DNA of 64,000 nt. It comes from Anaerococcus mediterraneensis (GTDB taxonomy: Bacteria; Bacillota; Clostridia; Tissierellales; Peptoniphilaceae). A program made the position numbers and the translations under genes. Numbering within the stretch: the first letter of the stretch is position 1; every line of letters starts with the position of its first letter. The notes beneath the pieces were generated by a model. That model ran no database searches. It was not told where the DNA came from and worked only from the letters and a program-made list of their open reading frames with translations. The DNA lies in assembly GCF_900128415.1 (NCBI RefSeq), contig NZ_LT635772.1, positions 682,001-746,000 of the forward strand, written 5' to 3'. Of this stretch, positions 2,100 through 27,287 are shown in pieces.

Positions 2100-5021
2100 A
2101 TGAATAAAAAAATATTGGCAGGACTTATGAGTCTGGGTCTGATTTTAGGACCTATGGGTAGGGGAGATGCCCTAGCCACAGAAATAAAAACCTATGACCA
2201 AGGCTTGGTTGATGAATTGATCTTATATACAAGCTTAGATGAGAGTCAGATCGGGCCGATTGATGGTGAATTAAAAAATGAATATTTAAAATTAAAATCT
2301 GATACAGAAGACCTTTTGGACTCTGAGGAAAAAACAGATGAATTGTTAAAAGAAAAAGTTGGGCTTTTTGACGATTTTTTTGCCAGAGCAGCTGATGCGG
2401 CTATAAATAGTTATACAAAAAGTCTAATCATCTATAGAAATTTTTTTGATGATAATAAAGAAATTTTAGCTGAAAAAGGTACTTATCACAAGGATAATAT
2501 TGATGTTTTGACCTCATATTTGGCTGAGATGATTTATGGAAAAAATGAAGGCGTTGACATCAAAGAAATTCATGAAAAATTATTAACTGATACAAATCGT
2601 TTAGAAACTGATATTCTAGAAGCTCTCAAAAAAGCTGAACCCAAAAAGACTGATGAAGAAATCAAGGCTATAGTTAAAAAAGAATATCCGGTCACTGAAG
2701 AAGCTATAAAAGCCTTAGCCCCAGATTTAGAAGCAGCTCACAAAAAGATGGAGGCTTTGAGAAGAAATAGGGATACTTTGTTAAAAGACAAGGCGAAATT
2801 TGTCCAAACTGAAGCCTATAAAAAAGCCGAAACATCCTTAAAAGAAACCTACGACAAAGCAATAAAAGGCGTAGAAGACATACTAGATTCTGGCTATAAT
2901 TATTTAAGTGAAAGCAAGGATATCGAGGAAGCTTACCTTGCCAGAACAGCCATCTCAAGTGAGGGCCTAATAAAATCTGGGGATGAGATAAAAATCCAAG
3001 ATAAAAGCTCAGAAAAATCCAAAGATGATCAACTTAGGGAAAAAATCCAAGAGGGCAAAAAAGAGCTGGAAAATTCTAAAATCAGCCAAGAGAGAAAGAA
3101 AGCCCTAGAAAAATCTATAAAAAAAGCAGAAGACCTACTTGCATCTCCTAGTAGAGACGAGGCAGAGATCGAAAAGGCAATCAAAGACCTGGATGAGAAG
3201 ATAAAAGCAGCCAAGGAAAGCGAAAAAGATACTGATGATGTCAAAGACTTAAAAGGCCAGCTTTCCTATGCCAAATACCTAAAAGAAAATATCTTCTATC
3301 AATTAAGATCGACAGAGGCAAAAGATGCCTTAGACAAGGCCATAAAAGAAGCAGAAGACCTCTTGGCCAAAGAAAATCCAGACGAAAGTGCTGTAAAAAA
3401 AGTGCTAGAAACTTTAAATAAAAAAGTTTCTGATGTGGTCTTTATAAGCCCAATCTATATAGAATATGCTAGTGGCGAGATTGTAGAAAAAGACCTAAAG
3501 GCCCTAGTTGATTCTAAAGAAAGGCTAGAAAGTCTAGAGGCATATAAAAAAGCTGATGAATATGATAAAATGCTCTACAAAAAGGCCCTAGATGCAGCGA
3601 GCGTTCTCCTAAAGGGACCAGCCGATAAAAAAACCAGCAAAAACCTAAAGGAAAAATATGTTGACTTATATAAATCTATAGAAAACTTGCCAAAGTCACA
3701 CCTAGACAAACTAAAAGATTTAGTAAATGATGATTCTAAATTTAGGACTCAGGATAATTATAAAAAAGCCAAGGAAGAAGGCAACGAAGTTGTCGATTAT
3801 TATAATGATCTGATAGAAAAAGCTAAAAAAATAAAAGATGATCCTAATGCAAATAAAGATGATATAGATGTTTTGTATAAGTGTTTGAATGATTCTGTTA
3901 GAGAAATTAACAAAAAAATAAAAACATTTGAAAGAAAAGCCTTAGCAGAAATCCATATTTCAAAGATTTTTGAAAAAAAGATTAAAAAAGATGACTCTAT
4001 AGATAAAGAAAAAGATAAGAAAAGAGTAGCCGAAACTTATTTAAGCAGCCTAAAGGAATTGAAGAAACTTGCAGAAGAAGGAAAATTAGATACAGATCAA
4101 GCAAATAAATTTACACAGCTTATGCAAGCATCCAGAATGTTTCTAGATGGCCAAGTAGGTATAAATTATTTTGATATGGTAGTTTTATTCCAAAGGTTAA
4201 GTCTAATTCAAGGTCATCCAAAATACAAAGATAAGATCGAGCAGCAAACAAGAGAAAAAATAGATCGAGCCATTGAGAAGGCAAAAGAAGCTATAAAAAA
4301 ACCAGCAGATGAAGAGTTAACAAAAGCAGCTTTGGGAGAATTAGAAAGTGCCATAAAAGAAAAATCTGTTGAAAACTTTGAGAAAGAAATCCAGAATGAC
4401 AAGGGTTCAGAAAATATAAAAGATGAACTTAGGACTAAATTGGAAGAAGAAATAGCAAAAGATTATAAAACCAATGGTAAGACCTTCAAGTATTCCAAGG
4501 CCCAAGCAGCATTGAGAAAGGCTTATGATTTGGCATTAGAAAATGCTAAAAAATTTGCCAAAGATCCCCTAGCCAGCGAGGATGACCTAAGGTCAGCTTA
4601 TAATAAGCTAGTAGAAGCTGGCAAAAACCTTGACGGGGACCTATTCCAATCTAGGATTCTTGCCTTGGCGGAGAAGTTCAAAAAAGAACAGCTAATGATA
4701 AAAGATCCAAATCAAAGACAGGCCATAGCAGAAAAAATCAACAAATTAGGATCAGACCCAACTAAGACTATGGATGATGTCATAGCTGTCGAAAAAGAAT
4801 TTGAAAGTCTAAAGACTCAGATCACAACTACAACAGTGCCAACCAATCAGGCTAGTGGCATCGTAACAACCACTACACCTATGCAGGGAAATAAAAATCC
4901 TGCATCAATTGTAAAAACGGGTATAGAATCTATAGGCAAGTTTGCAATTATTTTAGTCGCAGCTGCCATTATCTTAATAATCATGAACAAAAAAGGAGAA
5001 AAAAATGAAAATAACAAATAA
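2100..5021 (+). CDS. Large exported FIVAR-like helical surface protein with C-terminal membrane anchor
   Basis: A 973-residue protein with a signal peptide (residues 1-26, likely cut after ALA). The body is lysine- and glutamate-rich and almost entirely helical. Repeated units of about 60 residues have the pattern Y/A-x-x-A-...-A...L...A...L typical of FIVAR-like surface modules, for example around residues 315-375, 380-450, 540-610, 715-775 and 795-860. A threonine-rich linker precedes a transmembrane helix near residues 943-962 and a basic tail. The pre-anchor NPASIVKTG is not a clean LPxTG/NPxTG signal, so it is more likely membrane-anchored than sortase-linked. The lipoprotein gene overlaps its end by 17 bases. 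Function unknown; adhesion or host-protein binding is plausible. Confidence 0.75.
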   Translation: MNKKILAGLMSLGLILGPMGRGDALATEIKTYDQGLVDELILYTSLDESQIGPIDGELKNEYLKLKSDTEDLLDSEEKTDELLKEKVGLFDDFFARAADAAINSYTKSLIIYRNFFDDNKEILAEKGTYHKDNIDVLTSYLAEMIYGKNEGVDIKEIHEKLLTDTNRLETDILEALKKAEPKKTDEEIKAIVKKEYPVTEEAIKALAPDLEAAHKKMEALRRNRDTLLKDKAKFVQTEAYKKAETSLKETYDKAIKGVEDILDSGYNYLSESKDIEEAYLARTAISSEGLIKSGDEIKIQDKSSEKSKDDQLREKIQEGKKELENSKISQERKKALEKSIKKAEDLLASPSRDEAEIEKAIKDLDEKIKAAKESEKDTDDVKDLKGQLSYAKYLKENIFYQLRSTEAKDALDKAIKEAEDLLAKENPDESAVKKVLETLNKKVSDVVFISPIYIEYASGEIVEKDLKALVDSKERLESLEAYKKADEYDKMLYKKALDAASVLLKGPADKKTSKNLKEKYVDLYKSIENLPKSHLDKLKDLVNDDSKFRTQDNYKKAKEEGNEVVDYYNDLIEKAKKIKDDPNANKDDIDVLYKCLNDSVREINKKIKTFERKALAEIHISKIFEKKIKKDDSIDKEKDKKRVAETYLSSLKELKKLAEEGKLDTDQANKFTQLMQASRMFLDGQVGINYFDMVVLFQRLSLIQGHPKYKDKIEQQTREKIDRAIEKAKEAIKKPADEELTKAALGELESAIKEKSVENFEKEIQNDKGSENIKDELRTKLEEEIAKDYKTNGKTFKYSKAQAALRKAYDLALENAKKFAKDPLASEDDLRSAYNKLVEAGKNLDGDLFQSRILALAEKFKKEQLMIKDPNQRQAIAEKINKLGSDPTKTMDDVIAVEKEFESLKTQITTTTVPTNQASGIVTTTTPMQGNKNPASIVKTGIESIGKFAIILVAAAIILIIMNKKGEKNENNK

Positions 5022-5448
5022 AAAAATATTGGCTGTTATCTTACTTGCTGCTACACTTACAGCATGTGATAGCCTAAAAGGAAATGAAAAAGAAGCAAAA
5101 CCAGCAGATCCAAAAGTAGAAGAACAAACAGAAAAAACTGATGAAAAAGATGCTAAGGGTACAGAAGATCTAGAAAATACTGATGAAGAAAATACTAAGG
5201 GAGAAGATGCTGATAGCGAAAAGGCAGAAGAAGAAAACCAAGAAGCTGTCACATCAGAGGGTAGTACTCCTAGAGAAAAACTTGAAGATGCTATATTCAA
5301 GAGCAGAGTTCAAGCAAGAGCTGCAGAAATCCTACTAGAAACTGCACCAGATTCAATTTCAGATATAAGAGAAGACCTAGAAGCTTTAGTTGAGAAATCA
5401 AATAAGCTTATAGAGGAAGCTCAAAGAAGACTAGACGAAATGGAATAA
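5005..5448 (+). CDS. Acidic lipoprotein ending in a shared helical module
   Basis: A 147-residue lipoprotein: the lipobox LTAC places the acylated cysteine at residue 21. Residues 22-90 are a low-complexity glutamate-, lysine- and aspartate-rich linker. Residues about 95-147 form the helical module shared with four other exported proteins here (core ETAPDSISDIREDLEALV). The ATG at 5005 has AAGGAG upstream and lies within the end of the 973-residue gene, so the two are co-transcribed; a terminator follows. It probably displays the module on the outer face of the membrane. No partner or function is known. Confidence 0.75.
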   Translation: MKITNKKILAVILLAATLTACDSLKGNEKEAKPADPKVEEQTEKTDEKDAKGTEDLENTDEENTKGEDADSEKAEEENQEAVTSEGSTPREKLEDAIFKSRVQARAAEILLETAPDSISDIREDLEALVEKSNKLIEEAQRRLDEME

Positions 5449-5454
5449 GATAAA

Positions 5455-5487
5455 GGCCCTCGCAAATTTTGCTGGGGCCATTTTTCT
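5455..5487 (+). terminator. Rho-independent terminator
   Basis: GGCCC (5455-5459) pairs with GGGCC (5475-5479) around an internal GCAAATTTTGC segment, followed by five T. It closes the surface-protein/lipoprotein operon. Confidence 0.8.
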
Positions 5488-5565
5488 TTATAAAGCCTTA
5501 AAAAGGGGTATATTATATAAAGAACCAATTCAAATTTAAGAAGGAAAAATAGAAGAGGTAATATT

Positions 5566-6597
5566 ATGAAAAATAAAAAAATCGTTAAGTTAATGATGGC
5601 ATTTGCCCTTGCTGGAGCAGTATTTGCACCACAAATGGAAAAATCTTTCGCATCAGAAAAAGATGTAGTAAACCTATATACTGACGAAAATTATTTAAAA
5701 GCCAGTATAGAACTTGCAAACACAATAAACAAAGCTAAAGAAGCCAAGGCATCTTATAAATACCTAAACGCTTCAAAGATCTATAAGGATAATCTTGACT
5801 ATAGGTTAAAAGTTGCAGAAGAAGTATATTACGAGCTTCCAAGCTCATACTCAAGCTCATATTTGATAAACAAGCTTACCAATGCAAGGTATTTTCTACA
5901 AAATACTATAGATGACTTGGATGGCAAACTTGCCAATACAACTGATCTAAATGAATATATCCGTGACTATAATTATAAATTTGCTGATAGTGATGAATTT
6001 AAAAACGCAACATATAGCCAACAAATGGATTATAGAAGATTGATAGAAAGAGCTGAAAAATTTGCTAAGGATGGAGCTTATGGCAACTCACAAGCTGTTG
6101 TTGATAATTTGATTGAAAAAATTAAAGCTGCTAAAAAAGACATAATTGATTCATATAAAAACAACAAGGCGAGAGTAGAATTAAACCAAGAAATAAAAAC
6201 ATCATCTCTTCTTAGAAAAAAAGCAGATGATTATACAAAGAGCTCTTTTGAATCATTCTTATCAACCCTAAAACTTGTAGAAACAAGCGTAGAAGACGAA
6301 TCAAAAGCTAAGACTATAAAAGAATACGAAGAGCTAAGAGAGGCCCTCAAAAAAGCTAGACTTGCCCTAGTCAAAGTACAAAAAACCGATCCAGACATCG
6401 AAAAACAAATCAAAAGACTAGAAGATGCTATAGCAAGGTCATCAAAAACTGTTGACGCAGCAGAATTTTTGATAGAAAAGTATCCAAACACAATTAAAAG
6501 TGTCAGATCAGACCTAGATAAACTTCTTGCTAAACAAAAGAAAAATATAGAAGCTGCTAACAAAAAAATAGCTGAGCTAAAAGGTATAAAGGGATAA
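5566..6597 (+). CDS. Secreted helical protein with C-terminal shared module
   Basis: A 343-residue protein with a signal peptide (residues 1-30, cleavage near SFA). Two FIVAR-like helical segments (about residues 40-115 and 135-205) are followed by a coiled segment and, at about residues 285-343, the shared module with core EKYPNTIKSVRSDLDKLL. There is no transmembrane or sorting signal at the C-terminus, so it is secreted or held non-covalently, perhaps through the module. The next gene begins one base after its stop, so the two are co-transcribed and probably work together. Not a family I can name. Confidence 0.75.
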   Translation: MKNKKIVKLMMAFALAGAVFAPQMEKSFASEKDVVNLYTDENYLKASIELANTINKAKEAKASYKYLNASKIYKDNLDYRLKVAEEVYYELPSSYSSSYLINKLTNARYFLQNTIDDLDGKLANTTDLNEYIRDYNYKFADSDEFKNATYSQQMDYRRLIERAEKFAKDGAYGNSQAVVDNLIEKIKAAKKDIIDSYKNNKARVELNQEIKTSSLLRKKADDYTKSSFESFLSTLKLVETSVEDESKAKTIKEYEELREALKKARLALVKVQKTDPDIEKQIKRLEDAIARSSKTVDAAEFLIEKYPNTIKSVRSDLDKLLAKQKKNIEAANKKIAELKGIKG

Positions 6598-6598
6598 T

Positions 6599-7129
6599 AT
6601 GAAACTAGGTAAAAAAATCTTATCAGGTCTTTTTGCTATAACTTTTATCTTTACTGGCTCCTGCCTAGGCTATCAAAAAAATACTGTCTATGCTGATGAA
6701 GTTGACGCTGAGTATGAAATACAAAGAAAAGCCTTAGTAGAGGCGGTAAATGATAGGGCCAATGTTATAAGCACTGAAGCATTTTATTCCTATGCATCAG
6801 AAAACTCCAAGGCTATCTATGAAAAAGCCGTAGCAGATGCTGAGGCAGTTCTAGAGCTTGGCCATGGTGCAAGCTTTGATCAGATGTCCCAAGCTACAGA
6901 GGCTATAAACACAGCCAAACAAAATATAATCAAGGAAGTAAACCATATACTGACAAAAAGAAAACTCGAAAGAGTCCTAGAAAAAGTCAGAGCTACAAAC
7001 AGGGCTACAAAATTTATATTGGAGAAATATCCAAACACTATTGCCAAGGTTAGGCCTGAGATAGAAGCACTCTTGCAAAAGCAAGACAGACAGATAAGAG
7101 AAGCAGAGAAAAGACTACAAAATATGTAA
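6599..7129 (+). CDS. Small secreted helical protein with the same C-terminal module
   Basis: A 176-residue protein with a signal peptide (cleavage near VYA, residue 32), one FIVAR-like unit (about residues 40-112, with YASENSKAIYEKAVADAEAV) and the shared module at residues 118-176 (core EKYPNTIAKVRPEIEALL). The module is closest to that of the upstream 343-residue protein, which suggests duplication of a single-unit form. It is the second gene of the pair and is followed at once by a terminator. Confidence 0.75.
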   Translation: MKLGKKILSGLFAITFIFTGSCLGYQKNTVYADEVDAEYEIQRKALVEAVNDRANVISTEAFYSYASENSKAIYEKAVADAEAVLELGHGASFDQMSQATEAINTAKQNIIKEVNHILTKRKLERVLEKVRATNRATKFILEKYPNTIAKVRPEIEALLQKQDRQIREAEKRLQNM

Positions 7130-7130
7130 A

Positions 7131-7156
7131 AAAAGGGCTACTTTTGTAGCCTTTTT
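7131..7156 (+). terminator. Rho-independent terminator
   Basis: GGCTAC (7136-7141) and GTAGCC (7146-7151) around a TTTT loop, with an A-run before and five T after. Confidence 0.85.
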
Positions 7157-7171
7157 AAATAAGGAAAGCAA

Positions 7172-8260
7172 ATGAAAAAATTAAGAAAAATTGGCCTCCT
7201 AGTGGCCCTGATAAGCCTGCTAAACTTAGGACAGTCCCACGCAGCGACCAAACAAGAGATAATCCTAAATGTAGATACATCTAGATATACAAATACAATA
7301 AAACGTTGCAATGATTACCTAGAAAAAAACCCGGGGATCTCAAAAAAAGAACGCCAGGACCTAGAAAATTTGGTCAAAAAAATGGAGTCCTTAGTTAGAA
7401 AAATCGAAGCTTATCAAAAATCTCATAATGAAAATGACTTCATAAAAAACGAAATAAGAAAACACCTAAACAACAGGTCTACATATTTTTCTGTAGATAT
7501 AAATAGGCATATGACAAATGAATACTTATCCGACCTTTTTTTGCAAGTTGCCAAAGAAGACCCATATTTTTTCTATAGCCAATACGGTGCTTGCAAGATA
7601 TCCACAAGCTCCAACGAGGGCAAGGCAAAAGATGGCAAAAAATTTATAGAAAAAGCTAATTTTGACATCACATATAGGTCAAGCCTAGACCAAGACCAGC
7701 AGGTTAGAAACTTCATAGACCAGTGGGTAAGTGAAAATATAAGCGAAAACCAATCTGACTATGGTAAGGTCCTAGCTATCCATGACTTCATAGTAAAGAA
7801 AAACTTCTATAATAGAGGAGACAGCAAATCCATGAGCGGAGGCTATTCTATTTACAACCCAAGCTCTATCATTTACGGCAATGGCGGAGTTTGCAATGCC
7901 TATGCAACACTTTTTGACCTAATGGCAAAAAAAGCAGGCCTAAAAACCTATTATATGACAGGCAAATCCACAAGAAATGGCGAAGACCATATGTGGAATA
8001 TGGTAAACATATTTGGTCAGTGGTACCACATAGATACTACCTGGGATGACCCAGTAGTTAATTTCTCGGCTGGCCATATAGAAAACCTAGGAGATTTTGT
8101 AATCTATGATTATTTCCTAAAATCAGATGACCAAATAAAAAAATCAAGGACCATAGATGAGGATGGCAAAAGACCAAGCGCACCAAATTCTTATACAGTC
8201 CTAAATAATAACTCCAAAATCGAAATGATCGATGGCAAATATTGGATAATAAATGATTAA
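7172..8260 (+). CDS. Secreted transglutaminase-like protein with N-terminal shared module
   Basis: A 362-residue exported protein with a signal peptide (cleavage near SHA, residue 24). Residues about 38-85 carry the shared helical module (core EKNPGISKKERQDLENLV), here at the N-terminus of the mature protein. Residues about 190-300 are a transglutaminase-core domain: Cys241 in GGVCNAY, His273 in EDHMWNMV and Asp288 in YHIDTTWDDP form the expected Cys-His-Asp triad. Bacterial members can be amide-crosslinking enzymes or cysteine peptidases, so the reaction is uncertain. No wall-anchoring signal is seen. It has its own terminator and follows the module-bearing genes, suggesting work on the same surface structure. 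Confidence 0.8.
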   Translation: MKKLRKIGLLVALISLLNLGQSHAATKQEIILNVDTSRYTNTIKRCNDYLEKNPGISKKERQDLENLVKKMESLVRKIEAYQKSHNENDFIKNEIRKHLNNRSTYFSVDINRHMTNEYLSDLFLQVAKEDPYFFYSQYGACKISTSSNEGKAKDGKKFIEKANFDITYRSSLDQDQQVRNFIDQWVSENISENQSDYGKVLAIHDFIVKKNFYNRGDSKSMSGGYSIYNPSSIIYGNGGVCNAYATLFDLMAKKAGLKTYYMTGKSTRNGEDHMWNMVNIFGQWYHIDTTWDDPVVNFSAGHIENLGDFVIYDYFLKSDDQIKKSRTIDEDGKRPSAPNSYTVLNNNSKIEMIDGKYWIIND

Positions 8261-8271
8261 ATAAAAGAGTA

Positions 8272-8306
8272 AGTCCTCAGTCTATACACAGGCTGGGGAT
8301 TTTTTA
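8272..8306 (+). terminator. Rho-independent terminator
   Basis: TCCTCAG (8274-8280) pairs with CTGGGGA (8293-8299, one G-U pair), followed by seven T. Confidence 0.75.
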
Positions 8307-8631
8307 TCTTTAAATTTGAAATGCTCCTAGAATAAAGGCTTATCGGAATGAGAGAGATTTTAAATAAGATTATTTTTTATTTTTTTCTGCGACTAGGCAA
8401 AAGACTAGGATAAAATTTTTTAATACTTATACAAGGAAAATATCATAGGATTTTAAATCAAAAATATGCTTTAAATTAGCATATATATAGAAAGAATTAA
8501 AATACGCAAAAAAATAAGAAAAAAACCTTGATAAAAAATCTATGTGCTAGTATATTTAAACATAAGCCTTTGGTGCTTTTATTTTTTTTGCAAAAAACCT
8601 TGAAAAATTCATAATAAAAGTCAAAAAACAC
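8307..8631 (+). promoter_or_regulatory. AT-rich region before the S10 operon with an upstream promoter candidate
   Basis: No gene is seen in this stretch. TTGATA (8528-8533) and TATATT (8551-8556) with a 17-base spacer could be an upstream promoter for the ribosomal operon. The remaining sequence is A/T tracts that could act as UP elements. Confidence 0.4.
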
Positions 8632-8660
8632 TTGCCAAATGGCTATATATGTCGTATCAT
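8632..8660 (+). promoter_or_regulatory. Main promoter of the S10-spc-alpha super-operon
   Basis: TTGCCA (8632-8637) and TATCAT (8655-8660), each one mismatch from consensus, are spaced by 17 bases. Transcription would start near 8667 and give a leader of about 138 bases. Confidence 0.65.
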
Positions 8661-8710
8661 ATATAAGTGCTTTGAAGTTGGATGTTGCTTATGCATAGGC
8701 CAATACATAA

Positions 8711-8784
8711 GGAAACTCCGACCGAGCGAGCTTAGAAATGATTCTAAGCGGTTTCCAAAAATATATCAAACGCCCGGACGGGCG
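8711..8784 (+). promoter_or_regulatory. Structured 5' leader of the S10 operon
   Basis: GGAAAC (8711-8716) pairs with GTTTCC (8751-8756), enclosing an 8-bp hairpin GCTTAGAA/TTCTAAGC (8730-8749). A second hairpin CGCCCG/CGGGCG (8771-8784) lies about 20 bases before the rpsJ ATG. S10 leaders are commonly bound by L4 (encoded by rplD here) for feedback control. That this leader binds L4 is inferred from position and structure only. Confidence 0.5.
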
Positions 8785-8804
8785 TAAAAGAAAGAGAGAG
8801 GAAA

Positions 8805-9116
8805 ATGGCTAATCAACAAAAGATAAGAATAAGACTTAGAGCTTATGATCATGAAGTGATCGACAGCTCTGCAGAGAAGATCGTAGAAGCAGTAAAAAGA
8901 AGCGGAGCAGAAGTAAGTGGACCAATTCCATTACCAACAGAAATCGAAAGAATAACAATTCTTAGAGCGGTTCACAAGTACAAAGATTCCAGAGAACAGT
9001 TTGAACAAAGAACTCACAAAAGACTTATCGACATCATTGGACCAAATGCAAAAACATTAGATGCACTAAAGAAGTTAAATCTTCCAGCTGGTGTTGATAT
9101 CGAGATTAAACTATAA
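8805..9116 (+). CDS. rpsJ: 30S ribosomal protein S10
   Basis: Full-length S10, 103 residues, a 30S head protein that also pairs with NusB in transcription antitermination. The N-terminus [14 protein letters not shown] and the central [17 protein letters not shown] segment are diagnostic. It opens the super-operon behind a structured leader and a strong AGAGAGAGGA ribosome binding site. Confidence 0.98.
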
Positions 9117-9125
9117 CTGTAATTA

Positions 9126-9173
9126 GGATGATTGACTATAAGGTTAATAGGGATTAACTGAATTGATCAATCC
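9126..9173 (+). promoter_or_regulatory. Hairpin in the rpsJ-rplC spacer
   Basis: GTTAAT (9143-9148) and ATTAAC (9153-9158) close an AGGG loop. The flanks GGAT...TTGA and TCAATCC (9167-9173) can extend the stem with a bulge. It may tune expression between rpsJ and rplC; no known element was recognised. Confidence 0.3.
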
Positions 9174-9193
9174 GCTGTAATTAAGGAGGACTC

Positions 9194-9823
9194 ATGAAGA
9201 GTATATTTACAACAAAAGTAGGCATGACTCAAGTCATCGACGAAGATGGAGTTATTACTCCTGTTACTGTTTTAAAAGCTTGCGACAACGTGGTTGTACA
9301 AGTTAAGACAGTAGAAAATGATGGATACAATGCTATCCAAGTCGGAACAATCGACAAAAAAGAAAAAAATGTCAAAAAACCAATAAAAGGACACTTTGAC
9401 AAAGCTGGCGTTTCATACAAGAGATACCTAAGAGAGATCAATCTTGGAGATGAAACAACAGAGCTAAAAGCAGGCGATAACATAACAGTAGACATCTTTG
9501 AAGATGGTGAAATAGTAGATATCGTTGCAACCTCTAAAGGTAAAGGAACCCAAGGTGCTATCAAGAGATGGAACTACGGAAGAGGACCAGAAAGTCACGG
9601 TTCAAAATCTCACAGAGTAGCAGGTGCTAGAGCAGCAGGTTCTGACCCAGCTAGAGTATTCAAGGGTAGAAAAGGTTCAGGTAAGATGGGACATGATCGT
9701 GTAACTATCCAAAATGTTAAACTTGTAAAAGTAAACACAGAGGACAGCTACATCCTAGTTAAAGGCGGAGTACCAGGACCTAAGGGCGGACTTGTTGAAG
9801 TTAAACAAGCTGTTAAAGCCTAA
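9194..9823 (+). CDS. rplC: 50S ribosomal protein L3
   Basis: L3, 209 residues, one of the first proteins to bind 23S rRNA; its central loop reaches toward the peptidyl-transferase centre. TTKVGMTQVIDEDG at the start and the KGTQGAIKRW and HRVAGARAAGSDPARVFKG loop segments are characteristic. It has an AAGGAGG site seven bases before the ATG and lies 15 bases from rplD. Confidence 0.98.
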   Translation: MKSIFTTKVGMTQVIDEDGVITPVTVLKACDNVVVQVKTVENDGYNAIQVGTIDKKEKNVKKPIKGHFDKAGVSYKRYLREINLGDETTELKAGDNITVDIFEDGEIVDIVATSKGKGTQGAIKRWNYGRGPESHGSKSHRVAGARAAGSDPARVFKGRKGSGKMGHDRVTIQNVKLVKVNTEDSYILVKGGVPGPKGGLVEVKQAVKA

Positions 9824-9837
9824 TCAAGGAGGAGAAA

Positions 9838-10461
9838 ATGCCTAAAGTAGATATTTTAAATATTAAAGGAGAAAATGTTGGATCTCTTGACCTAAACGAA
9901 ACCCTATTTGCTACACAAATTAGCGAACATGCAGTTTATGAAGTAATCAAGAACCAACTAGCAAATAAAAGACAAGGTACCCAATCAGCAAAAACTCGTG
10001 CTGAGGTACGTGGTGGTGGAAGAAAGCCATTTAGACAAAAAGGAACAGGACGTGCTCGTCAAGGTTCTATAAGAGCTCCACACTACACAGGCGGTGGTGT
10101 TGTATTTGCACCAAAGCCAAGAGACTATAGCTACAAACTAGCTAAAAAACTTAGGAGAAAAGCCCTATATTCAGTACTAACAGCAAAAGTCAATGACAAT
10201 GAGCTTGTAGTAGTAGATAGCCTTTCTCTAGAAAATGCAAAAACAAAAGAAGCAGCTGCAGCCCTAAAGGCCCTAAATGCTGACAGCAAAGCATATGTAG
10301 TAACAGCAGAAAAAGATGACCTAGTATATAGATCATTCAGAAATATAGCTGGTGTAGAAGTAGCAGAAGCTAGACTAATAAATGTTTATGATTTAGTAAA
10401 ACATGACAAGCTAGTAATAAGCAAAGATGCTATTGCTAAACTTGAGGAGGTATTTATCTAA
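9838..10461 (+). CDS. rplD: 50S ribosomal protein L4
   Basis: L4, 207 residues. The long basic loop ([19 protein letters not shown], then [17 protein letters not shown]) lines the peptide exit tunnel. In many bacteria L4 also represses its own operon by binding the S10 leader, so the leader structures at 8711-8784 are a candidate target. Its TAA shares its last base with the rplW ATG. Confidence 0.98.
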
Positions 10462-10754: not shown

Positions 10755-10765
10755 GGAGGAGTTAA

Positions 10766-19202: not shown

Positions 19203-19205
19203 GAG

Positions 19206-19856
19206 ATGAATATAATTTTGTTAGGCCCACCAGGAGCTGGAAAGGGCACGCTATCAAGTAAAATTTTAAAAAACAAAGATGCAGTTCAGATAGCAACAGG
19301 TGATATATTCAGATACAATATTTCAAATGAAACTGAACTGGGAATGAAAGCAAAATCTTTCATGGATAAAGGCGACCTAGTACCAGATGAACTAACAATT
19401 GATCTAGTATGGGATGCTTTTGACAAACTCGACAAAAAAGAGGGTCAAATAGTATTATTTGACGGTTTTCCAAGAAACATGCTACAAGCTAAGGCCCTTG
19501 ATGAAGGTATGAAAGAAAGAAATACCGAAATCTACAAGGTTATATACTTCGATGTAGATGAAGAAATCTTAATCGATAGGATAACCGGTAGGAGAGTTTG
19601 TCCAGACTGCGGAGCAACCTTCCACATACAAAACCACAAACCAGAAAAAGAAGGCATATGTGATAGGTGCGGATCAAAACTCATCCAAAGGAATGATGAT
19701 AACGAAGAGACAGTCAAAAACCGTATAGAAGTATACAACAGCCACACCAAGCCACTCATGGACTACTATGAAAAGGCGGGTAAGCTTATAACAATAGATG
19801 GCGCTAATTCTCCAGAAGAAGTTTTTAACGAATTTAAAGATAAATTAGGAAAGTAA
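19206..19856 (+). CDS. adk: Adenylate kinase, zinc-lid form
   Basis: A 216-residue cytosolic kinase (ATP + AMP = 2 ADP). P-loop GPPGAGKGT at residues 7-15; AMP-binding and FDGFPRN motifs are present. The LID has four cysteines (CPDCGATF and CDRCGSKL), the zinc-binding form of many Gram-positives. The methionine aminopeptidase gene map, which normally comes next in Firmicutes, is missing here. Confidence 0.98.
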   Translation: MNIILLGPPGAGKGTLSSKILKNKDAVQIATGDIFRYNISNETELGMKAKSFMDKGDLVPDELTIDLVWDAFDKLDKKEGQIVLFDGFPRNMLQAKALDEGMKERNTEIYKVIYFDVDEEILIDRITGRRVCPDCGATFHIQNHKPEKEGICDRCGSKLIQRNDDNEETVKNRIEVYNSHTKPLMDYYEKAGKLITIDGANSPEEVFNEFKDKLGK

Positions 19857-19978
19857 CTTAATTTATGATAAAAAGAAAAGTAGATGTGATAGAATCTTTA
19901 AAAGATTTCTAGATCAGTCTTTGATAAAACTAACAAGCGTTCAATAGACATAGAAAGAAATATAAGGAGGTTCTATCG

Positions 19979-20197
19979 ATGTCAAAAAAAGATGCTATAG
20001 AAGTTACAGGAGTTGTCGAAGAAGCAATGCCTAATGCAATCTTCAAAGTAAAACTAGACAACGGACACGAAGTACAAGCCCACTTATCAGGCAAACTTCG
20101 TATGAACAGCATTAGAATACTAGAAGGGGACAAGGTAACTGTAGAACTATCCCCATATGATCTTAGCCAAGGTAGAATAACTTGGAGGAAAAAATAG
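19979..20197 (+). CDS. infA: Translation initiation factor IF-1
   Basis: A 72-residue OB-fold protein that blocks the 30S A site during initiation. Typical blocks are [20 protein letters not shown] and [23 protein letters not shown] precedes the ATG. It lies 122 bases after adk; that spacer has no map gene, only a short unrecognised 15-codon frame. Confidence 0.98.
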
Positions 20198-20333
20198 CCC
20201 GACGATATATCGGCTAGTCCCACGATCTTGGGTGAAGGATTTACAATCCTTCATATTCGAGACAAGCGTAGCGATAAGTCAAAGCCACCGTTAGGACATT
20301 TTGCCAAAAAAATAGGCAAAACATTCATCCAAG
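20195..20333 (+). ncRNA. Structured intergenic RNA between infA and rpmJ
   Basis: A 187-base gap in an otherwise tight operon. TAGCC/GGCTA with inner GA/TC (20195-20216) starts at the infA stop codon; TGAAGGATT/AATCCTTCA is a perfect 9-bp hairpin with a three-base loop (20233-20253); TTTTGCC/GGCAAAA is a 7-bp hairpin (20299-20321). CTTGGGTGA (20227-20235) can pair with TCATCCAAG (20325-20333) as an outer or alternative stem. No long T-tract follows. It could be a ribosomal-protein-responsive leader for the alpha part of the operon or a processing site. No known family was recognised. Confidence 0.45.
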
Positions 20334-20384
20334 CTACCAAAGTTAAATCTAAAAACAAGATATAAACTTAAGTTAGGAGCAAAA

Positions 20385-20498
20385 ATGAAAGTTAGAGCAT
20401 CAGTTAAAAAAATGTGTGATAAATGCAAGGTTATCAAAAGAAATGGTAAAGTAATGGTAATCTGCGAAAATCAAAAACACAAACAAAGACAAGGTTAG
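20385..20498 (+). CDS. rpmJ: 50S ribosomal protein L36
   Basis: A 37-residue zinc-ribbon protein: [19 protein letters not shown], then [11 protein letters not shown]. The Cys-Cys-Cys-His zinc set is complete. TTAGGAG lies before the ATG, and rpsM starts nine bases after the stop. Confidence 0.97.
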
Positions 20499-20507
20499 GA
20501 GGGTTCA

Positions 20508-20852
20508 ATGCCAAGAATAGCTGGTATAGATTTACCTAGAGAAAAAAGAGCAGAAATAGGACTAACATATATCTATGGAGTTGGTCGTGCAACTGCAAAT
20601 GAAATCTTAAAAAACACAGGAATAAATCCTGATACAAAAATGAAAGACCTAACAGAAGATGAATTAGGTAAAATACGTGAACAACTAGATCACTACACAA
20701 TCGAAGGTGACCTAAGACGTGAAAGAAGTCTAAACATTAAAGCCCTTAGAGAAAACGGCTCATATAGAGGACTTAGACACAAAAACGGTCTACCTGTTAG
20801 AGGACAAAACACAAAAAATAACGCAAGAACAAGAAAAAACAGAAAGGGTTAA
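20508..20852 (+). CDS. rpsM: 30S ribosomal protein S13
   Basis: S13, 114 residues, a 30S head protein bridging to L5. [21 protein letters not shown] and the [14 protein letters not shown] basic tail are diagnostic. Confidence 0.98.
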
Positions 20853-20855
20853 TAA

Positions 20856-21254
20856 ATGGCTCCAAAAGGAAAAAAATCTACCAAGGGTAGAAGAAGAGTT
20901 AAAAAGAATGTTGAACGTGGCCAAGCTCACATCTCATCAACATTCAATAACACAATGGTAACACTTACTGATATGCAAGGAAACGCACTCTCTTGGGCAA
21001 GCGCAGGACAACTAGGCTTTAGAGGAAGCAGAAAATCTACTCCATTTGCAGCAGGTGAAGCAGCAGACGTAGCAGCTAAAAAAGCTATCGAACACGGCCT
21101 AAAAACTGTAGAAGTTTATGTAAAAGGACCAGGCTCAGGAAGAGAATCTGCAATCAGAAGCCTACAAGCAGCAGGTCTAGAAGTTACCATGATCAAAGAC
21201 GTAACACCAATCCCACACAACGGATGTAGACCACCAAAGAGAAGAAGAGTTTAA
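20856..21254 (+). CDS. rpsK: 30S ribosomal protein S11
   Basis: S11, 132 residues, lines the platform near the mRNA exit. [19 protein letters not shown] and the [17 protein letters not shown] end are diagnostic. It lies three bases from rpsM. Confidence 0.98.
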
Positions 21255-21266
21255 TAAGGAGATATT

Positions 21267-21860
21267 ATGGCAGTAAGCAAAGATCCAGTATATAAAAGAG
21301 CTAGAGCTTTAGGAATTTCTCCAGCCTACCTAGGATATACAGGTAGCTCAAATAGAGCTCTTCCACAAAGAAGAAGCAAACTATCTGAATATGGTATGCA
21401 ACAAAGAGAAAAACAAAAAGCTAAATTCATTTATGGTGTAAGTGAAAAACAATTTAGAGGCTACTACGACAAAGCTAGTAGAATGAAGGGTCAAACAGGT
21501 GAGCAATTAATCATCCTATGTGAAAGAAGACTTGACAACATAGCCTTTAGATCAGGACTTGCTAGAACAAGAAGAGAAGCAAGACAAATAGTAACACACG
21601 GCCACCTACTAGTAAACGGCAAACGTGTAGACATCCCATCATACCTAGTAGAAGAAGGCGATGTTATAGAAGTTTGTGAAAAATCAAGATCAAAAACACT
21701 ATTTAAAAACATCAAAGAAGTAAACGCATCATTTGGTGTAGTAGATTGGTTAGATTCTGATATAGAAAATCTAAAAGTAAAAGTAGAAAAATTCCCTACA
21801 AGAGAAGACATCGATATACCAGTAGAAGAACGTATGATAGTAGAGTTTTACTCTAAGTAA
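21267..21860 (+). CDS. rpsD: 30S ribosomal protein S4
   Basis: S4, 197 residues, a primary 16S rRNA binder. The S4 RNA-binding domain has ARQIVTHGHLLVNGKRVDIP. The N-terminus lacks the zinc CxxC set (zinc-free form). In Firmicutes S4 can repress its own mRNA; here it lies inside the alpha operon. Confidence 0.98.
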   Translation: MAVSKDPVYKRARALGISPAYLGYTGSSNRALPQRRSKLSEYGMQQREKQKAKFIYGVSEKQFRGYYDKASRMKGQTGEQLIILCERRLDNIAFRSGLARTRREARQIVTHGHLLVNGKRVDIPSYLVEEGDVIEVCEKSRSKTLFKNIKEVNASFGVVDWLDSDIENLKVKVEKFPTREDIDIPVEERMIVEFYSK

Positions 21861-21892
21861 AATTAAAATAAAGTTAGAACTAAGGAGCTACC

Positions 21893-22846
21893 ATGATCGA
21901 AAAAATAGATACAAATATAGAAATATTGGATATAAAGGAAGAAGACCACTACGGCAAATTCGCCCTATATCCACTAGAGAGAGGATATGGTACAACCATT
22001 GGAAACAGCATGAGAAGGGTGCTTCTATCATCCTTACCTGGTTCTAGCGTCTCAAAAATACTTATAGATGGAGTACTTCATGAATTTTCAGTAATTGATG
22101 GAGTAGTTGAAGACGTTCCAGAAATAATATTAAATATCAAAGGTCTAGATGTCAAAAAACACACAGACGAAGATGTAACACTATTTTTAGATATCGAAGG
22201 ACCAAAGATTGTAACAGCAAAAGATATAAAAGAAGATGCCTTAGTTGAAATAGCCAATCCAAACCACTATATAGCAACAGTCAACGAAAAAAGCAAACTT
22301 ACTATAGCTATGGATGTGACGAATGGAAAAGGCTACAGGGTAGCAGAAGAAAACAAAAACGACTCTGACCCAATAGGAACTATAGCAATCGACTCATCAT
22401 TCACCCCAGTAGAAAAAGTCAACTACACAGTTGAAAATACCAGGGTAGGAGAATCCACAAACTATGACAAACTAATCATAGAAGTATGGACAAATGGAAC
22501 AATCACCCCACAAGAAGCCCTAGCAGAAGGCTCATCAATCCTAACAAAAAACTTCGCATTCTTTGGCCAATTGCCAGATAAGCAATTCCCACCAGAAGAA
22601 GAAGAGATAGTAGAAGAAATAGTAGAAGATGAGAGGGACGAAAACCTAGATAAAACAATCGAGGAACTAGACCTATCACTTAGATCATTCAACTGTCTAA
22701 AAAGAGCAGGATTTGACACACTTGGGGATGTCATACAAGTTTCAGAATCTGAGCTAAAAACAATCAAAAACTTCGGCAAAAAATCACTAACAGAAGTCAT
22801 AGACAAAATCCACGAACTTGGACTAAGTCTAAAAGATGAACAATAG
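21893..22846 (+). CDS. rpoA: RNA polymerase alpha subunit
   Basis: A 317-residue subunit that nucleates polymerase assembly. The N-terminal dimer domain shows [20 protein letters not shown]; an acidic linker near residues 238-255 joins the C-terminal domain ([15 protein letters not shown]), which contacts UP elements and activators. It lies between rpsD and rplQ as in most Firmicutes. Confidence 0.98.
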
Positions 22847-22854
22847 GAGGAAAT

Positions 22855-23196
22855 ATGGCAGGCAAGAGAAAACTAGGCAGAAGAACAGACCATAGATCTG
22901 CTATGCTAAGAAACCTTGTGCAATCACTTCTTGAAAACGGCAAAATCGAAACAACCGTCACAAGAGCAAAAGAATGCCAAAAAATGGCAGACAAAATGAT
23001 CACACTAGGCAAGAAAAACACTCTTCACACCAGAAGACAAGCAGCAAGCTACTTATACAAGCCATCAGTAGTTCAAAAACTATTTAATGAAATAGCACCA
23101 GAATACGAAGAAAGAAATGGTGGTTATACAAGAGTAATAAAATTAGGACCTAGAAGAGGCGACGGCTCAGAAAGAGCAATAATTGAACTAGTCTAA
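22855..23196 (+). CDS. rplQ: 50S ribosomal protein L17
   Basis: L17, 113 residues. [18 protein letters not shown] at the start and [16 protein letters not shown] at the end are canonical. Last gene of the super-operon; two hairpins follow. Confidence 0.98.
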
Positions 23197-23206
23197 ACAC
23201 CACCAG

Positions 23207-23287
23207 CCCATTTTCGCGGCAATGGGCAGATTTTATTTAGATTATAATTTAAATAAAGACCACTCTCTGATGAGAGTGGCTTTTTTT
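23207..23287 (+). terminator. Double terminator of the ribosomal super-operon
   Basis: GCCCATT/AATGGGC forms a first hairpin at about 23207-23228 with a weak T-rich tail. CCACTCTC (23260-23267) and GAGAGTGG (23272-23279) with a TGAT loop, followed by seven T, form a strong terminator. Confidence 0.85.
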
Positions 23288-23320
23288 GTGTATTTAGACA
23301 AATTATTTATAATATAATTT

Positions 23321-23348
23321 TTGAAGATAATTGTATATAAAGTATGAT
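23321..23348 (+). promoter_or_regulatory. Probable promoter of the wall-anchored protein gene
   Basis: TTGAAG (23321-23326) and TATGAT (23343-23348) with a 16-base spacer, 36 bases before the ATG. Confidence 0.45.
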
Positions 23349-23383
23349 GTATAAAGACAGTAAAGGTTTTCAAGGAGGATATA

Positions 23384-25108
23384 ATGAAAAATACAGAAAA
23401 AAAACCAAAATATGCAATGAGAAAACTAAGCATAGGCCTAGTATCATGTATGCTAGGATTCGCACTAATAGCTCAACCAAGCCATTCTTTAGCAGATGGG
23501 GGGGTGGATACTGATCCAGCATCTGTAGAAGAAGGTCTCGAAGAAAAAGAAGAAGAAAAAGATTCTGAACCTACAAATGAAATAGGAGTTGATAACAATC
23601 AAAACGAGGGTAATTCTGATATAGAATTTAGTGATAATATTGATAATGAACCTGTTCAAGCAGTTGCCCAAGAATATACTCATAAAATAGTATGGGGTAA
23701 AGATACAGGTAAATACGGTAAAAATTATGACAAAGATCTAGATGGCGAGAAAATAAAAGCACAGGTTGCTTTGAGGTTATATGCTGAAGATGCTCAAGGC
23801 AAGAGAGTACACCTATTCGCTGGATTTAAAGAAGAGGATTTAGTAGTAGGTGAAGATAAAGTTATTGATTATTCTAAGTATACTTTCTATGATACAAATG
23901 GTTGGAAGAAAGTAAATAAGGAAGACTATAAAAATATAGGAGTAGAAGGACTAGAATGGCCAGTTTCTGATAAAACAGGAAACACTATGTGGAGTACATA
24001 TTCAGGATATAATACTGGATATACAGCTCTATATCAAAATATGAATAGTGAGATAGAATATAAAAAAACACCTGGCTCACTAATCCTAGAAGAGGATAAA
24101 AATAATTTAGATATTAAATACAATATTAAAAAAGAAGACGGTAAACTTGTAGAGAATGAAAAAAGAGAGGTAATCGTAGAAGAAAATGATAAATTTAAAG
24201 AGGGTGAGAAAAAATGGCTGTCACATATAGGTGGTCCTTATAAGAAAAAATTTGATGATAGGGAAAATTCTATAAATTTAGCTATAGAGCAGGGATACCT
24301 TGAAATGTACAACCCATATACAGGTAAGCATAACTCATACGAGCTATTGGGTAGTTTTAAAAATGAAAAGCACAACAAATACTATAAATTAATAATAGAG
24401 GGATCTGACAGAAGAGGCTGGACTGTAACCCTTGGTTCAAACCTAAAAGAAGAAAAAATCCCCGAAGATAAAAAAATTGACTATGGTATAGAGTATGTAG
24501 AAGACCCTAATTTATACGAAGGCGAAGAAGTTGTAGATAGAGAAGGCCGAAAGGGTTTGGTTAGAGATACTCTTAATCACATATACCTATTAGATAAGGA
24601 TGGCAATAAAGAAACTGTCAAAAAAACTCTTATTAAAAGTGAAAAAATCTCAGAAATTATGAACAAGATAGTTAGGATTGGTACAAGAAGACCTATACCT
24701 CTAGATCCAAATAGTTTTAAAAACAAAGAGGATGAGGAAGAGTACAACAAGCTTGTAGGCGAATTGACCGATGAGATCGAAAAAGAAGTAGAAAAATCAA
24801 AAGAAAATACAAATAAAGAAAATCCAAGTCAAGAAAATAAAGATGACAAAAAGGAAGAAAAACCAAGCCAAGAAAAAACAGATGACAAAAAGGAAGAAAA
24901 ACCATCTGTAGAAAAAGAAAAAGAAACTGACAAAAAGGAAGAAAATACCGATCCTAAAAAAGTTAAAAAAGAAAACAAGAAATCAATGTCTACACCAGCC
25001 AAGGGTAAAATAAACCCAAAAACAGGTGTGGCAGGATCTGGATCTATTATAAGCATTCTTGCAGGAGCAGCCCTAGCAAGTCTTGGTCTAAGAAAAAAGA
25101 ATGACTAA
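23384..25108 (+). CDS. Wall-anchored surface protein with G5-like domain and NPKTG sorting signal
   Basis: A 574-residue exported protein. The signal peptide carries a YSIRK-like motif (YAMRKLSIGLVSCMLGF, residues 11-27), which directs secretion near the septum in other Gram-positives. An acidic linker leads to a unique region (about residues 95-355), then a G5-like domain at about 360-445 with DYGIEYVEDPNLYEGEEVV and a closing VRIGTRRP. A lysine/glutamate/proline-rich wall-spanning region with DDKKEEKPS repeats follows. The end is NPKTG, a hydrophobic stretch and RKKND, a sortase signal with Asn in place of Leu. G5 domains often bind N-acetylglucosamine-containing or zinc-linked surfaces; the ligand here is unknown. 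Confidence 0.8.
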   Translation: MKNTEKKPKYAMRKLSIGLVSCMLGFALIAQPSHSLADGGVDTDPASVEEGLEEKEEEKDSEPTNEIGVDNNQNEGNSDIEFSDNIDNEPVQAVAQEYTHKIVWGKDTGKYGKNYDKDLDGEKIKAQVALRLYAEDAQGKRVHLFAGFKEEDLVVGEDKVIDYSKYTFYDTNGWKKVNKEDYKNIGVEGLEWPVSDKTGNTMWSTYSGYNTGYTALYQNMNSEIEYKKTPGSLILEEDKNNLDIKYNIKKEDGKLVENEKREVIVEENDKFKEGEKKWLSHIGGPYKKKFDDRENSINLAIEQGYLEMYNPYTGKHNSYELLGSFKNEKHNKYYKLIIEGSDRRGWTVTLGSNLKEEKIPEDKKIDYGIEYVEDPNLYEGEEVVDREGRKGLVRDTLNHIYLLDKDGNKETVKKTLIKSEKISEIMNKIVRIGTRRPIPLDPNSFKNKEDEEEYNKLVGELTDEIEKEVEKSKENTNKENPSQENKDDKKEEKPSQEKTDDKKEEKPSVEKEKETDKKEENTDPKKVKKENKKSMSTPAKGKINPKTGVAGSGSIISILAGAALASLGLRKKND

Positions 25109-25117
25109 TCTATAAAA

Positions 25118-25141
25118 AACACCCTTGTGGGTGTTTTTTTA
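25118..25141 (+). terminator. Rho-independent terminator
   Basis: AACACCC (25118-25124) and GGGTGTT (25129-25135) around TTGT, with A-run and T-run flanks, so it may act on both strands. Confidence 0.85.
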
Positions 25142-25301
25142 TTTTATGTTTATTGACCAAAGCTTGTGAAAATATAGAAAAAACTTATGTAAAATGGCTT
25201 ATTCATCGTCTTTATAATTTTTGTAAAAAATTGATCTTCTTAACATAAATTTAACATCCAATATTTTATTATAAAAATATAAATTTTAAGGAGTTAAGAC
25301 A

Positions 25302-27287
25302 ATGAAAAAGAATAGAATTATTATAACAAGTTTGGTGATGGCATCAGTCCTGCCTTTTGTAGGTGGGGTCAATTCTGCAAGGGCAGATGAGATTAAAAAC
25401 ATTAGCGAAAAGGCAAAGTCTGACCTAGATATGGCAAGGGAAAACCTAAAAGAAGCCGAGGAAAAGAAGACTCAGTTAGTAAATGAACTAGAACAAGCGA
25501 AAAAAGCAGCGGCAGAAAAATTAGAAGAAAAAAAGTCAGAAGAAGATAAGCTTGCCATAGTAGAAGACAATATAAAAAACAATGAAGCAATCATAGAAAA
25601 AGATTCTGAGATCAAAAAAATAGACAAAGAACTTGAATCCTTGGGTAAACAAATCAGTCAGGCAGAAAAAGAGGCCCAACAAGCTCAGGAAAAAGTCAAA
25701 CAAGCAGAGAAAGCCTACGAAAAAGCCAAAAACCAGTCTCCTGATGGGGAAAAATTCATCCCAGAAGATAAAAGGGAAGAACTAAAAAAACAATATGAGG
25801 CGGCTGATGATATTTTAACTCAAAATAAGAAAAAGCAAGCTGAATTTCAGGAAGAATATAATAAAAATGTGCAAAAGCGAAATGAACTTTCCTCAAAAAA
25901 GGAAGGAATAAAAGAATTTTTTGATGGGTATGAAAGAGAAACAGATAAGTCAGAAAAAATAAAAAGTCAAGACTATTTAGATTTTAAGGCAAAACAAAAA
26001 GAAAATATTAAAAAGATTGATGAGGAAATTCGTCAAAAGAATGATGAAGCTGGTCCAATTGGTAAAGCCCTAAAGAGCATAGGTGAAACCATAGAGGGAG
26101 ATCAAAAAACCAGGGATGATAAGTTAAAAGCCTATGAAAAACACAAACAGGCCCGAGAAATACAAAAACTTTTTGAAGGAGATAAGTCAAAAAATCTAGA
26201 TAAATTTATCGAAGATAAGCAAGAAGAAAAACAAAAAGTAGAGCAAGAACTCGGTGAGGCAAAGGAAAATACAAAAAAAGCCCTTGGTGACTACTCAAAA
26301 CTAATTTTCAAAGAAGCTGAAAGAAAAAAAGAGGTGGCAAGGTCTAAAGCTGCCGCTGATTTTTTAGAAGAGAGATTGACTAAGAAAGAAGACCCTTTTG
26401 TCATAAATAATGAAGAAGATCTCAGAGGTGAAAAAGATATTTACCTAAAAAAGGCAAAAGCTTCTCAATCAGTATTAGATAATATCCAAAGCCAAAAAGA
26501 AGAAAAGAAAAATGCCCTCGATAAACTAAATGAACAAGAATCAAAACTGCAAGAGGACTATGATAACAAGCTAAGATCTTTGGAAATAGCTAGAGAATTA
26601 AAAGCATTCTTAGAAAATAAAAAGAATGATAAAACCAAGGATGACCGTCTAAAAGAATTACAAAAAGCGGTGGACCAAGCAAAAGCTGACCTATATAAAA
26701 AGACAGCTGCTATGGATGAACTCTCTAAAAAAGAGAATGAACTAAGAGAGAAGAAAGGGAAACTTGGAGATCCTGTCGATCAAAACACTTTAGAAACTGC
26801 CAAAGCTCAACTAGAAAAAGATAGGGCAGATGTCGAAAAGATAAAAGCCCATATCAAAGAATTAGAAAAATCTCCTGAGATGGAAAAGGTCAAAAAATTA
26901 GAAGATGATATCAGGGAAATAGAAACAAAGATCAAAGAGATCGAAGAAAAGATCAAATCTTTAGAAAATAATAAGCAAAAAGAAAGCCCAGATAAAGACA
27001 ATAATAGGAATCAAAAAGAAAGTCAGGAAAATGATGACTATGGTATAGATCTTTCTAGCTTTACCCTAGAAAAAATCGATGAAAAGGCAAAAATAAAAAA
27101 TACTATTTCTAAGTTTAAAATAGCAGTGAAAAAAGTTAAAAAGACTATTGCTAGGGCAGAAGAATTTGTAAAAACACCAAATATTGATGAACAATTAAGA
27201 CATGACCTTATAAAACTTATAGAAAAACAAAAATCAATTATAAAACGTGTAGAAAAATATATAGAAAAACTAGAGAAATCTCTATAA
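25302..27287 (+). CDS. Secreted coiled-coil protein with C-terminal shared module
   Basis: A 661-residue protein with a signal peptide ending near ARADE (residue 30). Residues about 35-550 are a nearly continuous charged coiled coil with many K/E/Q heptads. The C-terminal 60 residues carry the shared helical module (core VKTPNIDEQLRHDLIKLI, then EKQKSIIKRVEKYIEKLE), the same as in the cluster at 5005-8260, 17 kb away. No membrane or sortase signal is seen at the end, so the module could be the means of cell attachment. AAGGAG precedes the ATG; a terminator follows. The fold recalls M-like or structural surface proteins, but similarity from coiled-coil composition alone is not evidence of kinship. 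Confidence 0.75.
   Translation: MKKNRIIITSLVMASVLPFVGGVNSARADEIKNISEKAKSDLDMARENLKEAEEKKTQLVNELEQAKKAAAEKLEEKKSEEDKLAIVEDNIKNNEAIIEKDSEIKKIDKELESLGKQISQAEKEAQQAQEKVKQAEKAYEKAKNQSPDGEKFIPEDKREELKKQYEAADDILTQNKKKQAEFQEEYNKNVQKRNELSSKKEGIKEFFDGYERETDKSEKIKSQDYLDFKAKQKENIKKIDEEIRQKNDEAGPIGKALKSIGETIEGDQKTRDDKLKAYEKHKQAREIQKLFEGDKSKNLDKFIEDKQEEKQKVEQELGEAKENTKKALGDYSKLIFKEAERKKEVARSKAAADFLEERLTKKEDPFVINNEEDLRGEKDIYLKKAKASQSVLDNIQSQKEEKKNALDKLNEQESKLQEDYDNKLRSLEIARELKAFLENKKNDKTKDDRLKELQKAVDQAKADLYKKTAAMDELSKKENELREKKGKLGDPVDQNTLETAKAQLEKDRADVEKIKAHIKELEKSPEMEKVKKLEDDIREIETKIKEIEEKIKSLENNKQKESPDKDNNRNQKESQENDDYGIDLSSFTLEKIDEKAKIKNTISKFKIAVKKVKKTIARAEEFVKTPNIDEQLRHDLIKLIEKQKSIIKRVEKYIEKLEKSL

Follow-up and report, generated by a model that had tools for sequence, protein, structure and literature searches.

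Receptor-plug pairing is familiar from the cohesin-dockerin system, which serves here as a working analogy, and the FIVAR domain is known as a three-helix bundle. Subtilase, pullulanase, GA and G5 proteins are often surface proteins in other organisms. In the WxL system (PMC10599100), a C-terminal attachment domain, small proteins that consist of little more than this domain and a membrane-anchored partner (WxLIP, DUF916-DUF3324) are found in the same gene clusters.

The window analysed here is a stretch of 64,000 nucleotides, positions 682001-746000 of a 2,080,215-base Anaerococcus mediterraneensis contig. Five of its exported proteins share a module of about 56-58 residues. The features discussed below, numbered from the first letter of the window, are as follows.

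2021..2049, + strand: sigma-70 type promoter match (TTGACA-17-TATAAT, 12/12), 5' of the five-gene run; pattern match only
2100..5021, + strand: exported protein of 973 residues with FIVAR domains and no module
5005..5448, + strand: lipoprotein of 147 residues with lipobox LTAC, a 70-residue acidic linker and a C-terminal acidic module (net charge -6); proposed membrane-anchored hub
5056..5067, + strand: lipobox LTAC of the lipoprotein, from the translation
5272..5445, + strand: module of the lipoprotein (acidic) type, residues 90-147; E 3.5e-21 with a profile made without window rows
5566..6597, + strand: exported helical protein of 343 residues with a C-terminal module
6409..6582, + strand: module of the 5566 protein, residues 282-339; profile E 1.5e-18
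6599..7129, + strand: exported protein of 176 residues, one FIVAR-like bundle and a C-terminal module; model m0cc75bd5a9ed
6956..7126, + strand: module of the 6599 protein, residues 120-176; profile E 5.5e-15; a hairpin in the model
7172..8260, + strand: exported transglutaminase-like protein of 362 residues
7283..7420, + strand: N-terminal module of the 7172 protein, residues 38-83; not significant alone, clear in orthologues
8271..8302, + strand: intrinsic terminator-like stem of 13 pairs followed by a T-rich tail, 3' of the gene run; pattern match only
25302..27287, + strand: exported protein of 661 residues, largely coiled-coil-like, with a C-terminal module
27105..27275, + strand: module of the 25302 protein, residues 602-658; profile E 5.1e-5

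The genes at 2100, 5005, 5566, 6599 and 7172 are closely spaced on one strand between the promoter match and the terminator-like stem, and the run 2100-8260 would therefore probably be expressed as a unit. The first gene overlaps that of the lipoprotein by 17 bases, and its product ends in a sorting-type tail (IVKTG, a hydrophobic stretch and a basic end). The FIVAR-like bundle of the 6599 protein scores 28.6 bits with the Pfam profile, slightly below the cut-off of 29.2. In the transglutaminase-like protein, Cys241, His273 and Asp288 are kept in all nine aligned sequences (itself and eight relatives). At the second site (22855-28510) a G5 protein and the 25302 protein are flanked on one side by the rpoA/ribosomal L17 end and on the other by a SpoIIE-type phosphatase-like gene. 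The rpoA neighbours in two other genomes, G025 (L145) and G028 (L146), are a subtilase and a module protein instead, and the site beside rpoA is possibly one of variable cargo.

The module family and its predicted fold

A sequence-only reading of this DNA had grouped the proteins at 5005, 5566, 6599, 7172 and 25302 by an 18-residue core. Reading the translations again confirmed the five genes, the segments and the shared Pro4, Arg11, Asp/Glu13, Leu/Ile14, Leu17 and Lys20, as well as the placement of the module, which is C-terminal in four proteins and N-terminal in the transglutaminase-like protein. The family is real, and it is larger than was first noted. When the window's seven exported proteins, a small set, were compared by BLAST, 5005, 5566 and 6599 were linked over 53-57 residues with E values of 3e-10 to 5e-9; the link to 25302 was weak (best E 0.002) and that to 7172 was not significant. 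For a non-circular test we used a profile of 89 modules from other loci, from which window rows and transglutaminase-like rows were excluded, with E values given for a search of 2000 proteins. This profile recovered 5005, 5566, 6599 and 25302 (E values as listed above). The 7172 protein alone gave an E value of 0.24, poorer than the best of 2100 shuffled window proteins (0.025) and the best of 700 reversed open reading frames (0.0028), but six of its orthologues matched at the corresponding place with E values of 2e-8 to 8e-12. Judged by sequence comparison, the module is thus a property of four of the five proteins on their own evidence, and of the transglutaminase-like protein by way of its orthologues, with a hairpin in its model at the same place.

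The proposed length of about 45 residues proved too short, and the conservation described for the five window copies is local to them: among 93 diverse modules the proline is kept in 92, while the arginine position is lysine or arginine in 63. A Pfam scan of these 93 modules found no fitting family, so that the earlier statement that this is not a named domain holds for Pfam. The commonest match was DUF948, in 21 of the 93 (best E 5.4e-4). In an NCBIfam scan, none of the window proteins had an above-cut-off match that covered a module, and searches of the open-access literature found no paper on it. A generic coiled coil is ruled out, because the profile has no match at E 0.001 in any of the 99 genomes of the family that lie outside the genus.

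The sequence-only reading had placed the module at two loci. We find 13 copies in 12 proteins at seven places in this genome: the 5005-8260 cluster, 25302, 493 kb, 1080-1083 kb (three genes), 1537 kb, 1810 kb and 2072 kb. A four-row profile gave ten strong copies, its training rows included, together with 7172 (1.5e-4). The carrier at 1810 kb, a beta-lactamase-like protein (Pfam E 3.5e-25), has two copies, which scored 4.5e-4 and 0.014 with this profile and were clearer with a 93-row profile. Matches at 569717 (E 0.05) and 285264 (E 0.12) were not counted.

With the 93-row profile, 24 of the 31 Anaerococcus genomes match at E 0.001. The match in G001 is a glycosyltransferase frame and was removed as a false positive, which leaves 23 module-positive genomes. 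The genus total is about 251 matches, with a maximum of 30 in one genome (G025). The family search covered 130 genomes, and none of the 99 from outside Anaerococcus matched. In a class sample of 391 genomes, a weaker control in that scoring was limited to 16 first-look candidates per genome, there was one borderline match outside the genus at a threshold of 1e-4 (G222, E 9.7e-5, in a genome that is 75% complete). By these profile searches the module appears to be specific to Anaerococcus among the genera searched.

The module is predicted to fold as an antiparallel two-helix hairpin. In the single-chain model of the 6599 protein (mean pLDDT 86, pTM 0.69) helix 1 of the module is a continuation of the last helix of the FIVAR-like bundle and ends at residue 143; the conserved proline lies in a short loop that leads to helix 2 (residues 149-175), with blocks from residue 121 onwards at pLDDT 97-98. 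The model of the 7172 protein (mean pLDDT 71) has a similar N-terminal hairpin, with helices at 37-52 and 58-100. Structure matches to the 6599 model lie mostly in its FIVAR-like part (residues 30-121) and include a NagJ-NagH entry as a helical match. Across the 93 modules, both helices have mostly hydrophobic residues at heptad positions a, d and e, and several of the a and d sites have a small or polar residue (Ala, Asn, Ser or Thr). A lone hairpin should not need to bury three hydrophobic positions in each heptad, which suggests pairing with a second hairpin, and from this pattern we infer a further packing surface in addition to the core of the hairpin itself.

Carriers, tail replacement and the lipoprotein type

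The fetched loci contain 121 distinct carrier proteins. The last module ends within eight residues of the C-terminus in 99 of them and within 25 residues in 108; in 13, more than 100 residues follow. A crude signal-peptide test was passed by 110 of the 117 carriers with their own start, and for some of the seven that failed the assigned start seems wrong or too late; the test is permissive, since 68 of 126 other long open reading frames from the same surface-gene-rich loci also pass. With the modules masked, the carriers fall into 43 groups, 12 of which are lipoproteins split by their low-complexity linkers. By this clustering there would be some 25-32 unrelated kinds of carrier, at most 32, a number that would fall if fragments and probable relatives were joined. 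The partners identified by Pfam are subtilase with FIVAR, pullulanase (PUD, CBM48, alpha-amylase), GA, G5, CAP, beta-lactamase-like and transglutaminase-like domains. The position of the module can change, as CAP precedes it in one group (group 2; Pfam CAP 9.3e-6) and follows two copies in L057, where CAP is slightly below cut-off. Several proteins have tandem copies, and some secreted proteins are nearly module-only (L183, a 118-residue frame, and L070, 97 residues). One predicted beta-lactamase-like exported protein (L024:1486-2784:-) ends in two modules in tandem. A search with the protein L009:6504-7289 found three close relatives only.

The transglutaminase-like and CAP carriers are each found in 15 of the 31 genus genomes and in none of the eight module-negative ones; shared ancestry may explain part of this co-occurrence. 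Eight of ten named loci of the transglutaminase-like family, to which the protein at 7172-8260 belongs, are from Anaerococcus.

The module itself has neither a sorting motif nor a hydrophobic tail. An ending that can stand in its place is seen among the pullulanases, for which the search returned 104 relatives. Five of these (P0004-P0008, 74-94% identical to the query; P0004 is from Anaerococcus) have the module at the C-terminus. In P0009 (63% identical over 88% of the query) NVKTG and a hydrophobic and basic tail occupy the place of the module, and P0010 (48%) ends in APETG with a tail of the same kind. Among the remoter pullulanases several end in a hydrophobic stretch with basic residues and many others have neither ending. 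The same replacement was not borne out for the subtilases, where homologues of module-bearing proteins in G025 and G028 have neither module nor sorting tail; these are large proteins (L145:6359-12181:- and L146:1918-8274:+). The GA carrier (L078) gave no test of tail replacement, because other proteins match only its C-terminal 90 residues or so, and the CAP copies found are all in module-positive genomes and so provide no anchor contrast.

Sortases are present in all 31 genus genomes, so the module is not a substitute for a lost sortase. We also note three consecutive sortase matches, as in pilus loci, at 825-827 kb on contig 1 of this genome, outside the window. A sorting-signal test flagged five of the 117 carriers; one (L066:6760-8232) looks spurious, and in the other four an internal module precedes the signal by some 100 residues or more. 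Five genomes have proteins in which an internal module is combined with a KTG sorting-type tail at the C-terminus (L012:3523-4851:-; L066:16575-18527:-; L068:1682-2917:+; L086:928-2154:-; L172), and from their sequences these proteins probably have a covalent anchor as well as the module.

The remark that most of the proteins lack any other anchor does not extend to 5005, which has a lipobox. Lipoproteins with a module, recognized by a lipobox pattern, number 21 and are found in 21 of the 23 module-positive genomes. G017 has a weak candidate, and none was seen in G004 (86% complete) at the loci of its two module matches. As the census covered 148 modules from fetched loci against about 251 matches in the genus, a count of one lipoprotein per genome is not exhaustive. 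The lipoprotein modules have net charges of -6 to -11 (mean -8.5, n = 21). For the 127 other modules the mean is +2.1, with 87 positive, ten zero and 30 negative, and 112 of 125 are more basic than the remainder of their own protein. In all 21 genomes the charge of the lipoprotein module is below the mean of the other modules examined there. Glu4, Phe8, Arg15 and Glu18 are invariant in the 21 lipoprotein modules and position 11 is arginine or lysine; these five residues form a stripe along helix 1, spaced by three or four, which varies in the other modules.

Several observations bear on how this contrast should be read. In a tree, all 18 lipoprotein modules included fall in one clade with four others (support 0.989); they are essentially one lineage, and the 21 genomes are therefore not 21 independent tests. 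The non-module part of the lipoprotein is even more acidic than its module, so that composition alone could explain part of the acidity. Three other modules have a net charge of -6 or lower, one of which (-9, in G022) is below the lipoprotein module of the same genome (-8), and in five genomes the mean of the other modules is -1 or lower. An opposed co-variation of hub and client charge across genomes was sought and not found; the two rise and fall together (Spearman +0.68). The negative modules and this positive co-variation are not what pure electrostatics would predict.

Interpretation and comparison with known systems

In our view, the placement of the module, the variety of its carriers and the replacement of tails in the pullulanases make it probable that it is a surface-retention domain. 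The suggestion of the sequence-only reading that it attaches proteins to the surface or to each other fits this C-terminal placement and tail replacement, and also the presence of a putatively lipid-anchored copy in 21 of 23 module-positive genomes. We infer further that the module itself retains the protein, that contact between modules does so and that the lipoprotein is the hub. The module would be a genus-specific, non-covalent retention domain that acts as a plug-in dock: the 5005 lipoprotein would be anchored in the membrane and present its acidic copy at the end of a long acidic linker, and secreted clients with a neutral-to-basic copy, usually C-terminal, would pair with that copy and so be kept in the envelope. 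Taken as a whole, retention by pairing with the lipoprotein's copy draws on recurrence, the conserved face, the charge contrast and the broad hydrophobic face, and we put it somewhat short of an even chance. The subtilases in G025 and G028 that have neither module nor sorting tail count against this reading, as do the proteins in five genomes that have both a module and a sorting-type tail.

The main rival is non-covalent binding to a wall polymer, either peptidoglycan or an anionic glycopolymer, in the manner of SLH, WxL and LysM domains, with the lipoprotein tying the membrane to the wall. C-terminal placement and the replacement of a sorting tail would be expected of such a domain, and a basic average charge of the modules outside the lipoproteins would suit anionic polymers; against this, the lipoprotein module is acidic in every one of the 21 genomes, nearly a quarter of the other modules (30 of 127) are net negative and no aromatic column is kept in most of the 93 modules, the best being a tyrosine in 29. 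We consider it somewhat unlikely. The modules could also self-associate as homotypic four-helix bundles that gather secreted proteins together or join one cell to another, the lipoprotein being simply a further member. Such bundles would agree with the three hydrophobic heptad positions of each helix, the tandem copies and the nearly module-only proteins L183 and L070, but the lipoprotein type is a separate, conserved and acidic lineage, which points to distinct partners, and we think self-association unlikely.

A module without a role in retention, FIVAR- or GA-like in style and serving as a helical cap, a spacer or a helical domain adhesive to host ligands, is quite improbable. The module does extend the last helix of the FIVAR-like bundle in 6599 and often follows helical repeats; yet it is also found after enzymes (pullulanase, beta-lactamase-like, CAP) and begins the transglutaminase-like protein, and its profile-profile probability with FIVAR is 0.7%. 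A C-terminal tag for export or quality control, read during secretion, would account for the strong C-terminal bias; internal and N-terminal copies, with the 13 carriers that run on for more than 100 residues, speak against such a tag, as does the passing of the signal-peptide test by most carriers, and we think it highly improbable.

Returning to retention by pairing with the lipoprotein, we offer a wider proposal as a tentative possibility: Anaerococcus may have its own protein-only display system, in which a lipid-anchored acidic hairpin on an acidic tether is a universal socket and complementary hairpins are plugs on secreted proteins, permitting surface enzymes and host-binding proteins to be exchanged independently of sortase. 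Up to 29 further module matches accompany that of the lipoprotein in one genome, and the proposed socket and the first plugs lie in one gene run (2100-8260). If this proposal is correct, it predicts which secreted Anaerococcus proteins remain cell-bound and offers a genetically encodable hairpin pair for enzyme display on a Gram-positive cell. A domain unmatched in Pfam on so many exported proteins is in any case a way into the surface proteome of this human-associated genus, and about 250 matches in 31 genomes could receive a name.

The nearest known scheme is that of WxL and WxLIP, which has in common with our proposal a C-terminal attachment domain, small domain-only proteins and a membrane-anchored partner. 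It differs in that the present module is a helical hairpin of about 57 residues found in a single genus, and a lipoprotein with the same domain is proposed as its partner at the membrane. The 93 modules have no conserved tryptophan column; without tryptophan motifs and predicted to be helical, the module is not a WxL member. FIVAR (PF07554) is likewise helical, occurs in some of the same proteins and directly precedes the module in 6599, where the single-chain model has three main helices in the FIVAR-like part and two in the module. At most one of the 93 modules matches the FIVAR Pfam profile at E 0.1, and the profile-profile comparison is not significant. GA (PF01468) is not among the Pfam families matched by at least two of the 93 modules, and is found elsewhere in some carriers. 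Sortase sorting signals of the LPXTG type occupy the same end of the protein and take the place of the module in the 63%-identical pullulanase homologue; unlike them, the module has no such motif or tail. The cohesin-dockerin analogy would extend to a receptor-plug scheme common to many secreted enzymes, with the difference that the two partners would in this case be variants of a single helical hairpin.
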